64,000 nucleotides of DNA from Clostridiales bacterium (GTDB taxonomy: Bacteria > Bacillota > Clostridia > Saccharofermentanales > Saccharofermentanaceae), in the NCBI GenBank assembly GCA_017529925.1, contig JAFXMZ010000024.1:1-64000 (forward strand). The letters are read 5' to 3'. Below, piece after piece: positions 1 to 50,775 of this stretch (position 1 is the stretch's first letter; every line of letters starts with the position of its first letter). The notes beneath the pieces were generated by a model that was given only the letters and a program-made list of their open reading frames with translations, had not been told where the DNA came from and made no database searches. The position numbers and the translations under genes were made by a program.

Positions 1-33
1 CTTCTCCGATAAGGTAAGATTGATTTGAGCCAT
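1..33 (-). CDS. IS256-like transposase, N-terminal fragment (runs off window)
   Basis: Only the first 11 codons are inside the window; they read MAQINLTLSEK. A clear ribosome site (AGGAGG) lies eight bases before the ATG at 33. The MAQIN(I/L)TL start is, from memory, typical of IS256-family (mutator-type, DDE) transposases in Clostridia, but eleven residues are too few to be certain. The catalytic domain would lie left of base 1. The neighbouring DNA (34 to about 140) looks like the IS left end, because the repeat array that follows is cut off there. Confidence 0.5.
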   Translation of the reverse strand, partial: MAQINLTLSEK

Positions 34-140
34 TTTTGAACCTCCTGTTTATTTATTTGTTGTGGTTAACAAACATTATACAGGGTCAGAAATGACTCAT
101 TTTTCTTTGTTTTGAATTTACACCATTATATGGGCACAAC
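1..140 (-). mobile_element. Probable terminal part of an IS256-like element
   Basis: It holds the transposase start at 33 and an AT-rich leader with a TATAAT box on the minus strand (75-80). The GTATAC array on its right begins abruptly at about 141 with a half site (TACTATTT instead of GTATACTATTT), so an insertion boundary near 138-140 is the simplest reading. The other end and its inverted repeat are outside the window, so the exact boundary is inferred. Confidence 0.4.
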
Positions 141-335
141 TACTATTTCCCCGTTTTTTACGATTTAGTACACCAAAAAGGCCGAATCGGTATACTATTC
201 TTCTGTTTTTCTAAATTTGGTATACCGGATCCTCGGTTTTGGTATACTATTTTTCAAAAAATAAAGAAATAGTATACCGAAGACGTCGTTTCAGTATACT
301 ATTTTTGCTTATTTGATGTTTTGGTATACCGCGAT
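141..335. repeat. GTATAC array 1 (52-bp period, truncated)
   Basis: Copies of GTATAC start at 190, 220, 242, 272, 294 and 324, with a degenerate GTACAC at 168. Spacings are 22, 30, 22, 30, 22, 30. A further half site (TACTATTT) at 141 falls where the next 30-bp step predicts one. Sites alternate in orientation: one faces TATTTTT rightward, the next is its reverse complement. The pair at 242/272 forms a 12-bp inverted repeat (GGTATACTATTT / AAATAGTATACC). The array lies just downstream of the ABC exporter gene that ends at 363. No ORF or terminator is seen in 34-362. Confidence 0.9.
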
Positions 336-362: not shown

Positions 363-2300
363 TCACTCCAGCTCGAAAGCACCAGTATACAGACGGTAGT
401 ATGTTCCCTTCATTGCGATGAGCTCTTCGTGGGTGCCGCGCTCGATGATGCGTCCGTGGTCGAGGACCATTATGACGTTCGAGTTCATGACTGTAGAAAG
501 GCGGTGCGCGATGACAAATACCGTGCGGCCTTCCATGAGCTTGTCCATTCCCTTCTGGACGATCGACTCTGTCCTCGTATCGATCGATGACGTTGCCTCA
601 TCGAGTATCATGACCGGCGGATCGGCAACAGCCGCACGTGAGATGGCGAGCAGCTGCCTCTGCCCCTGCGAAAGGTTGGCACCGTTATTCGTTATCATGG
701 TGTCATATCCTTCCGGAAGCCTCGTTATGAAATCATCAGCTCCGGCGAGCCTTGCGGCTTCACGGCACTCCTCATCAGTTGCCTCGAGGCGGCCGTATCT
801 TATGTTGTCCATTACCGTTCCGGTGAAGAGGTTCGTCTCCTGGAGAACAAGTCCCAGTGACCTTCTAAGATCTGCCTTCTTTATCTTGTTGACGTTGATG
901 CCGTCATATCTGATCTTTCCGTCTGCAATGTCGTAGAAACGGTTGATGAGGTTCGTGATCGTCGTCTTTCCTGCACCCGTGGCACCTACAAATGCGACCT
1001 TCTGGCCGGGCTTGGCGAACAGGCTGATATCATGAAGGACATCCTTGCCCTCCTCATATGCGAAGTCGACTTCATGCATGCGGACATCGCCCTTGAGCTC
1101 CTCATATGTGACAGTTCCATCTGCCTTATGCGGATGCTTCCATGCCCACTTTCCGGTCCTTTCGAAGACTTCGTGAACGCTGCCGTCCTCATCGACAGTG
1201 GCATTGACAAGAGTAACATATCCGTCGTCGGTCTCGGGCAGTTCGTCAATGAGCGCAAATACACGTCCTGCACCTGCACCTGCCATTACTATCGCATTCA
1301 TCTGCATCGTGAGCTGGTTCAGGTTGCTCGTAAACTGCTTTGCCATATTAAGGAACGGGACGAGGATCGATATACCCATGGCAAGACCCGAGAATGACAG
1401 GTTCGGTGCACCGAGCGTTATCAGGATGCCTCCCGTAAGTGCGATCGTAACGTAAAGGATATTTCCTATGTTGTTGATGATCGGTCCGAGGATATTCGCA
1501 TATGCATTGGCCTTGCTCGAATCCTCGCACAGTCCGGCATTCAAACGGTCAAACTCCTCTATCGCATCGTCTTCGTGATTGAAGACCTTGACGACCTTCT
1601 GTCCCGTGATCATCTCCTGGACAAAGCCTTCAGTCGCAGCGACCGCCTTCTGCTGGCGCATGAAGTATTTCGCCGATCCTCCGCCGACCTTCTTTGTCGC
1701 GAAGAACATGGCGGCGACTCCGAGAAGGAGCACCAGTGTCATCCATATGCTGAAATACATCATTATGCAGAAGGATGTAAGCACCGTAACTGATGACTGG
1801 AGCATCATCGGGAATGCCTGTGATACCAGCTGCCTTAACGTATCGATATCATTTGTATAATGGCTCATGATGTCGCCGTGCTTATGCGTATCGAAATACT
1901 TTATTGGCAGGCGCTGCATTCCCCCGAACATCTCTTTTCGGAGCTTGTCGAGGAAACCCTGTGTCATGAATGCCATTATCTGAGTCTGAAAGACCGACAG
2001 CACGAGTGCGGTCGCGTAGCAGACAACGAGAACGGTCAGATATCTGACGACTTCGGGACGGGCACCGGCCCAGTCTCCGCCCTCAAACGTATTCTCGATA
2101 ACGGTTATTATCTTCTGTGTAAACAGCGGCGGGATAGCATTTACTCCTGCTGCTACAAGTATGCAGACTACTGCCACGGGAGCGAGGACGGGGAAATAAC
2201 CGAAGAACTTCTTAACGGCTCTTCCAAGGCCGGAGAATCCCATCTTGAATCCTTCCTTACCCTGACCCAGACCGGCTGCGCCTCTCCTGTTCGAACTCAT
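363..2300 (-). CDS. ABC exporter half-transporter (MdlB/TmrB-like), second of a pair
   Basis: An integral-membrane export protein with a fused ATPase. Six transmembrane helices fill roughly residues 30-340. The nucleotide-binding domain follows, with Walker A GATGAGKTT near residue 440, a C-loop LSQGQ and Walker B MILDEATSSID carrying the catalytic Glu. An insertion of about 50 residues separates the membrane and ATPase domains. The ATG overlaps the stop of the upstream partner (ATGA) and its ribosome site GGGAGGTGA lies inside that gene, so the two are translationally coupled. In such heterodimers this subunit provides the hydrolysing site. The substrate (drug, peptide or lipid) cannot be told from sequence. 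The next gene to the left is an IS element. Confidence 0.9.
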   Translation of the reverse strand: MSSNRRGAAGLGQGKEGFKMGFSGLGRAVKKFFGYFPVLAPVAVVCILVAAGVNAIPPLFTQKIITVIENTFEGGDWAGARPEVVRYLTVLVVCYATALVLSVFQTQIMAFMTQGFLDKLRKEMFGGMQRLPIKYFDTHKHGDIMSHYTNDIDTLRQLVSQAFPMMLQSSVTVLTSFCIMMYFSIWMTLVLLLGVAAMFFATKKVGGGSAKYFMRQQKAVAATEGFVQEMITGQKVVKVFNHEDDAIEEFDRLNAGLCEDSSKANAYANILGPIINNIGNILYVTIALTGGILITLGAPNLSFSGLAMGISILVPFLNMAKQFTSNLNQLTMQMNAIVMAGAGAGRVFALIDELPETDDGYVTLVNATVDEDGSVHEVFERTGKWAWKHPHKADGTVTYEELKGDVRMHEVDFAYEEGKDVLHDISLFAKPGQKVAFVGATGAGKTTITNLINRFYDIADGKIRYDGINVNKIKKADLRRSLGLVLQETNLFTGTVMDNIRYGRLEATDEECREAARLAGADDFITRLPEGYDTMITNNGANLSQGQRQLLAISRAAVADPPVMILDEATSSIDTRTESIVQKGMDKLMEGRTVFVIAHRLSTVMNSNVIMVLDHGRIIERGTHEELIAMKGTYYRLYTGAFELE

Positions 2301-43180: not shown

Positions 43181-44479
43181 ATGATCGACATTAAGTTCTT
43201 GCGTGCCGAACCCGACACGGTCAGAGAAAACATCAAAAAGAAGTTCCAGGACGATAAGCTCCCCCTTGTCGACGAAGTATTAACTCTCGACAAGGAATTC
43301 AGGGAATCCAAGTCCCGCGCAGAATACTTAAGAAGCCAGAGGAATTCCCTTTCCAAGCAGATCGGAATGCTCATGGGACAGGGTAAGAAGGATGAAGCTG
43401 AGGAAGTAAAGGCTCAGGTATCCTCCATGGCAGGCGAGCTCGAGGAACTTTCCGCTAAGGAAACTGAGCTTTCCGAGAAGATCGATAAGATCATGAGGGT
43501 CATCCCCAACATCATCGACCCTTCAGTTCCGATCGGTAAGGACGACTCCGAGAATGTCGAGAACGAGAGGTTCGGTGAGCCTGTTGTACCCGACTTCGAG
43601 ATCCCTTACCATGTTGACATCATGGAGAATCTCGACGGCATCGAGCTCGATCCCGCAAGAGAAACGAGCGGCAACGGCTTCTATTACCTCAAGGGCGATA
43701 TCGCGAGACTTCACTCCGCGATCCTCTCATATGCAAGGGATTTCATGATCGACAGAGGATTTACCTACTATATCCCGCCCTTCATGATCCGCTCGAGCGT
43801 CGTCAACGGCGTTATGAGCTTCGCCGAGATGGAGAATATGATGTACAAGATCGAGGGCGAGGACCTATATCTCATCGGAACATCCGAGCATTCCATGATC
43901 GGAAAGTTCATCAATTCATTCACAGATGAGGACAAGCTCCCTCTTACACTCACATCCTACTCCCCCTGCTTCCGTAAGGAAGTCGGCGCTCACGGCATCG
44001 AGGAGAGAGGCGTTTACCGTATCCACCAGTTCGAGAAGCAGGAGATGATCGTCGTATGTAAGCCCGAGGAGTCCATGCAGTGGTACGAGAAGCTCTACAT
44101 GAATACAGTTGATTTCTTCAGAAGCCTCGATATCCCCGTAAGGACACTCGAGTGCTGCTCCGGCGACCTGGCAGACCTTAAGGTCAAGTCCTGCGACGTA
44201 GAGGCCTGGTCTCCCAGACAGAAGAAGTATTTCGAGGTCGGTTCCTGCTCCAACCTGGGTGATGCCCAGGCAAGAAGGCTCGGGATCAGGGTAAGGCCTT
44301 CCGACAAGTCAAAGGGCAACTACCTCGCCCACACTCTCAACAATACTGTTGTTGCTCCTCCGAGGATGCTGATCGCATTCCTTGAGAACAACCTTAACGA
44401 GGACGGCTCCGTCAGGATACCTCTCCCCCTGCGCATGTACATGGGCGGCAAGAGCGTCATCGAGGTGCCCGCGAAGTAA
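43181..44479 (+). CDS. serS: Seryl-tRNA synthetase
   Basis: 432 residues, full length. Class II aaRS: N-terminal coiled arm (about 25-105) that holds tRNA-Ser, motif 2 CFRKEVGAHGIEERGVYRIH and motif 3 NTVVAPPRMLIAFLEN. It charges tRNA-Ser and tRNA-Sec with serine. AAGGAGGATCGATC precedes the ATG. A terminator follows the gene. It is a housekeeping anchor between two polysaccharide regions. Confidence 0.97.
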   Translation: MIDIKFLRAEPDTVRENIKKKFQDDKLPLVDEVLTLDKEFRESKSRAEYLRSQRNSLSKQIGMLMGQGKKDEAEEVKAQVSSMAGELEELSAKETELSEKIDKIMRVIPNIIDPSVPIGKDDSENVENERFGEPVVPDFEIPYHVDIMENLDGIELDPARETSGNGFYYLKGDIARLHSAILSYARDFMIDRGFTYYIPPFMIRSSVVNGVMSFAEMENMMYKIEGEDLYLIGTSEHSMIGKFINSFTDEDKLPLTLTSYSPCFRKEVGAHGIEERGVYRIHQFEKQEMIVVCKPEESMQWYEKLYMNTVDFFRSLDIPVRTLECCSGDLADLKVKSCDVEAWSPRQKKYFEVGSCSNLGDAQARRLGIRVRPSDKSKGNYLAHTLNNTVVAPPRMLIAFLENNLNEDGSVRIPLPLRMYMGGKSVIEVPAK

Positions 44480-44504: not shown

Positions 44505-44537
44505 GGGCCGTCCTGCTGTGGGACGGCCTATTTTATT
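44505..44537 (+). terminator. Intrinsic terminator after serS
   Basis: GGCCGTCC (44506-44513), loop TGCTGT, GGACGGCC (44521-44528) then TATTTTATTG. Strong GC stem. Confidence 0.88.
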
Positions 44538-44580: not shown

Positions 44581-44781
44581 CTCCGGTATACTATTTTTCG
44601 CTTTTTTGTAAATTGGTATACCAGAATCAAAGATTCGGTATACTATTTTTCAATTGGAAGGAGAATAGTATACCGATTTCAGGTTTTCGGTATACTAAAC
44701 CGCAAAAACACTAAAAACAGTATACTGAAGACGTCTTTTAAGTATACTATTTCATGTTTTCTATAGATTTAGTATACCGCA
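44581..44781. repeat. GTATAC array 3 (52-bp period, eight sites)
   Basis: GTATAC starts at 44586, 44616, 44638, 44668, 44690, 44720, 44742 and 44772, spacings 30, 22, 30, 22, 30, 22, 30. Same phase and element structure as array 2. The spacer TGAAGACGTCTT here resembles CGAAGACGTCGT in array 1 and TGAAGACATTAT in array 2, so spacers have common descent or function. It lies between two convergent genes (serS and rpmB). The rest of 44480-44937 holds the two terminators and about 100 bases in which I see nothing. Confidence 0.95.
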
Positions 44782-44880: not shown

Positions 44881-44910
44881 TAACAAAAAAGGAGCCCTCA
44901 GGCTCCTTTT
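44881..44910 (-). terminator. Intrinsic terminator after rpmB
   Basis: AAAAGGAGCC (44887-44896), loop CTCA, GGCTCCTTTT (44901-44910). On the minus strand the stem is followed by TTTTTTGTTA. It can also form in the plus direction. Confidence 0.85.
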
Positions 44911-48807: not shown

Positions 48808-50775
48808 TCAGGCGGCGGGCTGTGTATCTCCTGCAGGCTGCGTATCACCCGTAGGCTGCGTGTCACCTGTAGGCTGCGTATCACCTGTAGGCTGTGTATC
48901 GCCTGTAGGCTGCGTGTCGCCTGTAGGCTGCGTGTCACCCGTAGGCTGCGTGTCACCTGTAGGCTGTGTGTCACCTGTAGGCTGCGTATCACCTGTAGGC
49001 TGCGTGTCGCCCGTAGGCTGCGAATCGCTCGCTGAAGGATCGGAAGTTGCGTTAGGATCCTCCGAAGGAGCTGTCTCAGCGCCTACTACAGATCCGTCCG
49101 GATTCATCTGTGCGACCGATCCGTCGGGATTCAGGACACCTATGTGGATGATAGCCCTGACAACGGGATAATATGTGATAGGAAGCTCGACCCTCTTGAT
49201 CTCGTTTCCGTTTCTGTCATACCAGATCTGATAGGACTTGGCGCTCGAACCCTCGTGAGCACCTCTCTCTGTAGCAGTCTGACCTACAGGCAGAGAAGCA
49301 TCAGCAACATAGGAAGGTGCGCCGGCAGGAGTCGTGGAGATCCTCTCACCCGTGAAGTCGATATACTCGCCGTCAGGGAGAAGATGTCCGTAGATCTCTA
49401 CCGTGATGATGCTCGTTGCAGAGTCCCACCATGCGTGGAGGGCAATAGGATAGGGTGTATTGTTCTCAAACTTGAAGTCCTGCTTGGGCCAGTCGACCGC
49501 AGCATCGGTTCCCTCGTACTTCGTGTAGGAGGAAGGGAACATATGGGGATTTCTCTCGACAACCTTGAGATCGGACTTGATGACCGACTGGTAGATCATG
49601 GAGGATACCTGGCAGATACCGCCGCCGAGATCATCTCCGGACTGACCGTTGATGATAACGCCTGCAACCTTATATCCTGCGGCTGCAGTCCTCTGGCCGA
49701 CCTCGCGGTTAAAGGAGAATGACTCTCCGGGATTCAGATACAGTCCGTCGATCTTCTCGCATGTGATCTTGATATTGTGGTTTCTGTCGGCATCAGGCTT
49801 CGTCGTGGAAGATGAAGAAGTGATCCTGCCGAACTCGGTCTTTATCATCTCCGTTGTGAGAGAAGGCTCCTCGATGCTGGCTTCGACGGGGATCGTGAAT
49901 GCATATTCCCTGTTGTCGAGCTTCTCCTTAACATCAGCAGCTGCCTTCTGGGCATCAAATATACGGCCCGTCTGGGACTCGTTATATGTGAACTGAAGCG
50001 TATTCTTGTCAAATCCTGTGATAACTGCTTCCTTTACGGGAGTATCCTTACCCTTGACCATCTCCTCGATGATACCGGTAAGCTCATCGGACTTTACCGT
50101 ATAGGCAGTCTTGTATGTAACAGGCTCCTTTGAGAGCTTCTGCTTGTCGTTATACATCTGGACGAGAGTCTCATCGTCCTCATTGCCTGTGGGCTTGAGG
50201 TAATTGAATGCCGTGTCGACTACTTCGTCTATATTGGACTCGAGCTTGATCGCAGAAGGATCGACCGACTCGATCTCGCCGTCGAAATCAAGCTTGATAT
50301 CTACAGTAAGGGGAGGCGTAGCGGAATTCTTCTTGATGATCTCTTCCTTTGCCGCTTCCTTTGTCATTCCGGAAACATTGATATCGTCGATGATAGTACC
50401 GTCAACGAACACATCGGACATAAGTGATTCCCTGATCTCGGAGGGAGTCATCTTTACGACGGTACCGTCAGCATTTGTCACTTCATACTGGGGTTCCTTA
50501 GCCAGGATACTCTGCTCGCCGTTTCCGCCGAGGAGAAAATACCATGCACCGAGACCAAGGACTGCTACAGCTGCAACAGACGCAACTATCACACCGGCCT
50601 TCTTCCCGCCTGACTTCTTCCTTCTCTTGGAGGGAGCCGCGCTCCTCGAAGGTGAAGATGATGCTCTGCGGGTCTGTGCCGAAGGTGCTCTTCCTGCACC
50701 TGCCGAACGAACTGCCGACCTGGTCATGGATGACGAACGTGTATTTCTTGACGATCCGTTTCCTGTCTTTTTCAT
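48808..50775 (-). CDS. VanW-domain surface protein with a hexapeptide-repeat C-terminus
   Basis: About 655 residues: Ser/Arg-rich basic cytoplasmic tail, one membrane helix ([20 protein letters not shown]), two peptidoglycan-binding-4-like domains (about 100-300), then the VanW domain with [13 protein letters not shown] and [14 protein letters not shown], a G5-like region, and a tail of ten PTGDTQ plus one PAGDTQ units. VanW domains occur in vancomycin-resistance and wall-associated proteins. The start at 50775 has CAGGAC before it; a GTG at 50829 is less likely. A good promoter lies at 50835. First gene of the unit leading to dnaD. Confidence 0.9.
48828..49022 (-). repeat. 18-bp tandem repeats coding PTGDTQ, in the vanW-type gene
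   Basis: Eleven near-identical 18-bp units (ten PTGDTQ and one PAGDTQ). On the plus strand each reads like GTAGGCTGCGTATCACCT with synonymous changes at third positions. This is a coding minisatellite likely to vary in copy number between strains. Confidence 0.93.

Follow-up and report, generated by a model that had tools for sequence, protein, structure and literature searches.

The window analyzed here, a stretch of 64,000 nucleotides, represents contig C22 in the genome of a rumen bacterium (G000; 2.21 Mb, 39 contigs) and contains three intergenic arrays of the palindrome GTATAC. Array 3 (44586..44777, assigned to the plus strand from its GAAGACG short gap) is 192 bp long and consists of eight sites starting at positions 44586, 44616, 44638, 44668, 44690, 44720, 44742 and 44772, which gives steps of 30, 22, 30, 22, 30, 22 and 30 bp and thereby four 30-bp units. 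An earlier note on this DNA had described eight sites in a 30/22 pattern between 44581 and 44781; all eight are exact GTATAC hexamers, and these bounds agree with ours to within 5 bp. On the left, serS (43181..44479, plus strand; PF00587/PF02403) is followed by an intrinsic terminator in the gap towards the array (44505..44537, plus strand). On the right, the convergent rpmB gene (L28; 44938..45135, minus strand; PF00830) has an intrinsic terminator of its own in the gap between the array and the gene (44887..44910, minus strand). Array 3 falls between the two terminators and therefore outside both transcripts as drawn. Its GAAGAC gap also contains AGACGTCT (44726-44740), which we take to be the MetJ met-box consensus and which probably occurs here by chance.

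The same layout of eight sites in 30/22 steps is found in array 2 (22217..22408, plus strand), located between a beta-helix/DUF4214 protein gene (18987..22058, plus strand) on the left and a DUF6020 protein gene (22442..24061, minus strand) on the right. Array 1 (168..329, plus strand) retains seven sites, the first of which is GTACAC, and its left part is gone; an ABC exporter gene (363..2300, minus strand) faces it with the 3′ end. The neighbourhoods given in the earlier note were thus confirmed, with arrays 2 and 3 lying between convergent 3′ ends (beta-helix/DUF6020 and serS/rpmB) and array 1 next to the exporter, and the GAAGAC motif reported as common to the three arrays is indeed present in one short gap of each. 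Taken from positions 190, 22217 and 44586, the arrays are spaced 22.0 and 22.4 kb apart. As judged from the sequence, the first 140 bp of the window (1..140, no strand assigned) are probably the end of an insertion sequence that removed the left part of array 1; the same 140 bp terminate contigs C11 and C14. This segment holds a reading frame starting with MAQINLTLSEK, and each of the three copies found lies next to an intergenic repeat, namely array 1, the GTATAC array of C11 and a different ladder on C14. Some insertion sequences are described as sitting likewise at REPs (PMC1525189). Elsewhere in the window, an 18-bp tandem repeat occupies positions 48818-49022 (11.4 copies, 89% matches).

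Genome-wide, the pattern GTATAC-N22-26-GTATAC-N14-18-GTATAC yields 61 matches in G000, compared with 0 for the reversed control. Walking outwards in phase from each exact pair gave at least 14 arrays; this map, covering arrays with at least three exact sites, is complete for the three-site pattern and a lower bound for arrays with a pair only. Twelve sites are found in C6, ten each in C3, C8, C11 and C30b, eight each in C17, C18, C21, C27, C30a and in arrays 2 and 3 of the window (C22b and C22c), and seven in the truncated array 1 (C22a), while C16 contributes one 29-bp pair. The spacing is nearly absolute: 102/103 intervals across the 14 arrays measure exactly 30 or 22 bp, and every array with readable ends has a 30 gap at both ends and hence an even number of sites. 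Exact GTATAC is present at 101/117 sites, with GTACAC or GTGTAC accounting for 12 of the remaining 16, an exactness that is partly selected because the walk began at exact pairs. Distinct gap interiors are only 46-48% identical, and the selection of exact pairs offers no explanation for the constant length of such diverged spacers. The sites alternate in orientation along the arrays, with T-runs after many of the short gaps. Inspection by eye revealed CCGGTATAC...GTATACCGGG at the ends of several arrays and no GTAG/CGTC tag. A CRISPR array was rejected as an explanation, as the gaps are homologous by position between arrays and the sites alternate in orientation.

Among 115 genomes of the family, the strict pattern is restricted to G000 and a relative, G036, which implies that the arrays are not essential. 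A scan of 84,980 species returned 22 stretches, most of them in RGIG8162, whose coordinates match G036, and in S35_Bin7, a distant Bacillota MAG and the sole ladder carrier among six genomes of its genus; it also returned three orthologous Exiguobacterium sites, scattered singles and one contig of RGIG6094. This last contig (19.5 kb) holds the sole such array found in RGIG6094 and is 99.9% identical to C11 of G000 over the 3.4 kb compared (L055 vs L063); either RGIG6094 or the G000 bin may be contaminated or misbinned for it. The G036 arrays have steps of 30-31/21-22 bp and flanks that differ from those in G000. In S35_Bin7, from which 21 arrays in 18 stretches were taken, the element is ~119 bp long and comprises eight sites at steps of 21, 9, 21, 11, 21, 9 and 21/22 bp, with degenerate sites in some of the arrays. 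Occurrences of GTATAC at 30/22 in viral contigs (7 stretches) and single matches in Dojkabacteria, Cloacimonetes, Prolixibacteraceae and Prevotellaceae were taken as chance; a simple base-count estimate predicts ~7 chance matches in 257 Gb. A phage or plasmid origin was likewise rejected, with no phage match and a single weak match to a plasmid (75.7% over 47% of the S35_Bin7 query, E 0.01) that was taken as chance. The literature matches listed on curved intergenic repeats and on Lachnospiraceae palindromic repeats contain no description of this element; a search on REPIN and RAYT in Firmicutes gave no match, and one on GTATAC gave none that was relevant.

The gap types agree by position between the G000 arrays, so that most of these arrays appear to descend from a single ancestor array. 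Furthermore, whole arrays were copied between loci, as indicated by near-identical arrays in unrelated surroundings. For example, array 2 (C22b) and C30a share 98.7% identity over 231 bp including 15 and 23 bp of flank, C3 and C11 share 98.1% over 320 bp, and the homology between C11 and C30b (88% over 252 bp) stops at most 7 bp from the array ends. Such copies would be expected of a selfish, non-autonomous MITE-like repeat without host function, the ladder of which would be bound by a transposase or mobility protein and the 3′ placement of which would reflect survivorship, an explanation that we regard as possible, if doubtful. The patchy distribution agrees with it, as does the situation in G036, where the ladder on C31, C97, C116, C142 and C144 is located inside an element of ~540 bp bounded by perfect terminal inverted repeats of 22 bp (the left end of the C142 copy is missing). 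One end pair of this element shows an exact 8-bp target duplication and two pairs match at 7/8 positions, the pairs having been matched afterwards among three left and four right ends. We presume the ends to be ISL3-like, and the carrier of the ladder in G036 looks like a MITE; such carriage is one route by which an element of this kind can spread. However, the G036 arrays on C63 and C99 lie outside the element, its 22-bp terminal repeat was not found in G000 or S35_Bin7, and no terminal inverted repeats were noticed by eye at the duplicated G000 copies. In addition, the AA/TT phase that is common to three families (see below) would not be expected from mobility alone. Mobilisation of the RAYT/REPIN type was rejected for the absence of the Y1 transposase (PF01797), which occurs in 26/115 family genomes and is missing from both G000 (97% complete) and G036.

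With respect to the neighbouring genes, 6/11 assignable G000 arrays lie in convergent gaps (C3, C16, C18, C22b, C22c and C27), 5/11 in tandem gaps (C6, C8, C17, C30a and C30b) and 0/11 in divergent gaps; this count omits C11, C21 and C22a and is based on longest-ORF calls, with C18 becoming tandem if an 89-aa ORF is real. Convergent gaps make up 9/53 of the local background, and the resulting excess (P ~0.005) is rough because the background includes the array regions and the gene calls are mechanical. In S35_Bin7, 16 of 20 regions could be assigned (6 convergent, 9 tandem, 1 divergent), and among these 16 the convergent share is not clearly above background. The convergent placement proposed in the earlier note therefore stands as an intergenic location at gene 3′ ends but does not amount to a rule, given the tandem cases in both genomes and the divergent one in S35_Bin7. 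In relatives in which both genes were readable, the serS-rpmB interval measures only 89-129 bp in several cases and is longer or occupied by different inserts in others; none of the intervals listed contained a GTATAC array.

Of 19 gene ends facing G000 arrays, seven have a terminator detected by script and three more have one recognized by eye, while nine have none. The arrays could in principle serve as bidirectional terminators or RNA hairpin arrays, with short-gap stems (GTATACCGAA/TTCGGTATAC) followed by TATTTTT; the nine ends without another terminator speak for it, the alternating orientation would let every neighbouring pair form a stem, and T-runs do follow many short gaps. We consider this highly unlikely, since ten of the 19 ends already possess a terminator and the ladders of S35_Bin7 and G036 are mostly devoid of T-runs. 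Moreover, complementarity within the gaps is no better than, or below, that of random partners (0.405 vs 0.448 for short gaps, 0.328 vs 0.421 for long gaps). This partner-shuffle test speaks against selection for RNA stems, and the lack of spacer covariation argues for DNA, not RNA, as the acting form. The protection of mRNA 3′ ends, which had also been suggested, is accordingly improbable for array 3, situated between two terminators and with spacer complementarity at or below random pairing.

At the level of the DNA helix, the site centres show a coherence near 10.4 bp of R = 0.94 in G000 (13/14 arrays), 0.93-0.95 in G036 and 0.94 in S35_Bin7, values that random two- or three-gap layouts attain in 4.5% and 1.6% of draws. 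The spacers carry AA/TT dinucleotides with a period of 10.3-10.4 bp. Their power at the helical harmonic exceeds the gap-shuffled mean 5.0-fold in G000, 6.5-fold in G036 and 4.7-fold in S35_Bin7, and 0/200 gap shuffles attained the observed power in each family, although shuffle statistics here and below overstate independence because the array copies are related. In this comparison of families, G000 was represented without C16 (a single pair) and without C11 and C30a, which duplicate C3 and C22b; three G036 arrays as well as 14 of the 21 S35_Bin7 arrays were included. The helical harmonic ratio ranks first in G036 and S35_Bin7 and second in G000, where the 7.43-bp harmonic is also strong (6.1-fold). 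With the hexamers masked, the AA/TT phase relative to the GTATAC centre is -171, 177 and -172 degrees in G000, G036 and S35_Bin7, respectively, and the corresponding phase of GC dinucleotides is 17, -6 and 8 degrees. This relation is maintained with a further 4 nt masked on either side of the hexamers (AA/TT z of -8.3, -3.7 and -6.8).

Compared with 974 background windows, AA/TT periodicity in 12/13 G000 arrays lies above at least 98.8% of the windows, and the C27 array shows no AA/TT excess. A simple wedge model, run on 13/14 G000, two G036 and three S35_Bin7 arrays, predicts a bend above the gap-shuffle mean in 18/18 arrays (z 0.5 to 5.4). Extra curvature is thus predicted for most arrays, with z of at least 1.9 in 13/18 and of 3.8 in array 3; for C8, C21 and C27 it is not clearly above the shuffles.

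Other repeats were ranked against the background in the same way. On C14 of G000 (L158:157-380), a second ladder, unrelated to GTATAC, alternates GGGATG and CATCCC at 24/29 bp with a strong 10.6-bp AA/TT periodicity and exceeds all 973 background windows in AA/TT phasing. The serS-rpmB interval of G073 (L138, ~1420-1640) contains a species-specific GTTGAC...GGTACC repeat with a 62-bp step, of which contig C26 carries a copy with 98% identity over 106 bp; this repeat likewise exceeds all 973 windows. On C11 of S35_Bin7 (L114:163-688), GTGAATTCAC recurs at 62-bp intervals in a tandem repeat that adjoins a GTATAC ladder; this GAATTC repeat was rejected as another ladder, being without AA/TT phase (562/973 windows higher). 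E. coli REP325, with a 23/77 layout and a 100-bp period, has its periodic signal at 8.3 and 12.5 bp, low wedge-model curvature and no AA/TT signal of the ladder type (913/973 windows higher), and the sucB-sucC BIME-2 of E. coli shows only weak 10.1-bp AA/TT power (2.6).

Three Exiguobacterium records (L053:3893-3973, L058:1214-1294, L059:3790-3870) contain four GTATAC sites at 23/30/22 directly upstream of an operon of parA and an RHH-protein gene. This cluster is likely a partition site, and it lacks AA/TT phase (714/973 windows higher). Its position, together with the helical phasing of identical palindromes, could suggest that our arrays, too, serve as binding sites for a partition protein or a regulator with sequence specificity (ParR/TubR/Lrp type), without any wrapping. 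This appears very improbable to us: RHH_1 (PF01402) is absent from G000 and G036, the Exiguobacterium sequences do not share the AA/TT phase, and the arrays are found at gene ends, not at promoters. In addition, the RHH protein of the Exiguobacterium par operon has no homologue in G000, G036 or S35_Bin7, and a reading of the arrays as partition centromeres (ParR/RHH), suggested by Exiguobacterium, is not supported.

The explanation that we consider best, and to which we give a little less than an even chance, is a dispersed intergenic element, borne in part by a MITE, by which wrapped, i.e. superhelically bent, DNA would be positioned around a protein. The GTATAC palindromes lie on one face of the helix, with steps of ~3 and ~2 turns adding up to five turns (52 bp), and the spacer AA/TT is placed half a turn from the sites, with GC steps in phase with them. 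From these phases it follows that A/T minor grooves and GTATAC major grooves face the same side, which is presumably the concave one. Where DNA is wrapped, for instance at the gyrase motif, A/T minor grooves are described as turned towards the protein (PMC6379681); by this rule, GTATAC would be read on the inside of the wound array, and a protein reading GTATAC from the concave side would keep the DNA as a smooth coil. We infer the wrapping itself, a partner protein, be it a nucleoid protein or gyrase on pre-bent DNA, and a benefit for the cell, for example in absorbing supercoiling between transcription units. The gyrase or nucleoid role put forward earlier is possible, and the phased, wrap-prone sequence counts for it indirectly. 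Several observations count against this explanation: arrays are carried by only two of the 115 family genomes, the nine gene ends without a terminator of their own leave room for a role in termination there, the 7.43-bp harmonic in G000 is not accounted for, C27 has no AA/TT excess and C8, C21 and C27 are close to the shuffles in curvature, the Exiguobacterium and S35_Bin7 GAATTC repeats lack the phase, and the search for a binding protein via RHH_1 and the Exiguobacterium par homologue gave none.

A more specific possibility would be a strong DNA gyrase site, as proposed for BIME-2: between transcription units, phased A/T and G/C steps would wrap the DNA on the C-terminal domains of GyrA. BIME-2 is described as a transcription-independent gyrase site, and the E. 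coli gyrase motif as a degenerate sequence of ~130 bp with a 10.75-bp periodic GC content (PMC6379681). Phasing of A/T against G/C of this kind is seen in the arrays, which are also located at 3′ ends, and no species-specific protein would be required. Nevertheless, we think this unlikely, because gyrase with its degenerate motif has no strict need for a hexamer, yet GTATAC is nearly invariant; moreover, the array period is 10.3-10.4 and not 10.75 bp, and E. coli REP325 itself is without a 10-11 bp AA/TT signal.

Beyond GTATAC, the ladders with AA/TT phase (GTATAC in three genomes, GGGATG in G000 and GTTGAC/GGTACC in G073) could represent a convergent class of chromosomal wrapping elements that several Bacillota built independently, a proposal that is distinctly doubtful at present. 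Its members would have no common sequence beyond the sites and would share inverted sites, a 5- or 6-turn period and AA/TT-phased, bend-prone DNA; between transcription units, they would in effect be short sequences that position a nucleosome-like complex of bacteria. If wrapping holds true, the arrays would be natural bacterial DNA-positioning sequences, readable from the sequence and located where the supercoiling of neighbouring genes meets, and would provide a direct handle on which protein is responsible for DNA organisation between the transcription units of uncultured gut Bacillota. With sites in register with GC and half a turn from AA/TT, the phase signature makes it simple to tell such ladders apart from REP/BIME elements of the E. 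coli type.

Compared with known systems, the array is a variant among dispersed intergenic palindromic repeats that perhaps works like a wrapping site. The REP/BIME analogy drawn in the earlier note holds for the dispersed palindromic units in alternating orientation, and E. coli BIME-2/REP elements are further described as located in intergenic 3′ regions, with two alternating linkers (PMC2817692, PMC3733652); they also share a location mostly between tandem or convergent genes. The likeness is formal only, given the lack of PF01797 in G000 and G036 and of a helical AA/TT signal in the two BIME-2 regions. The ladder differs by its hexamer sites, its 5-turn period with AA/TT at 10.4 bp, and the absence of a RAYT gene and of stem covariation; whereas REP/BIME units form stem-loops of 20-40 bp, pairing in the arrays is limited to the hexamer and a few bases beside it. 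GTAG/CGTC-tagged REPs and RAYT-mobilised REPINs are portrayed as species-specific families with inverted pairs, a 3′-end bias and non-autonomous spread (PMC3733652, PMC3116915), all features that resemble the ladder, but G000 and G036 have no Y1 transposase and the aligned ladder flanks, read by eye, show no clear end tag. MITEs with ISL3-like ends match the carriage of the G036 ladder with its 22-bp terminal inverted repeats and 8-bp duplication, and differ from the G000 and S35_Bin7 arrays, which showed none of these ends. As a wrap-sized element with phased A/T versus G/C, the E. coli gyrase motif resembles the ladder; its description as degenerate with a 10.75-bp period sets it apart from a nearly invariant hexamer at 10.3-10.4 bp (PMC6379681). 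Finally, the phi29 p6 nucleoprotein is described as DNA wrapped on a multimeric protein (PMC10899789), to which the wrapping proposed for the ladder would correspond.
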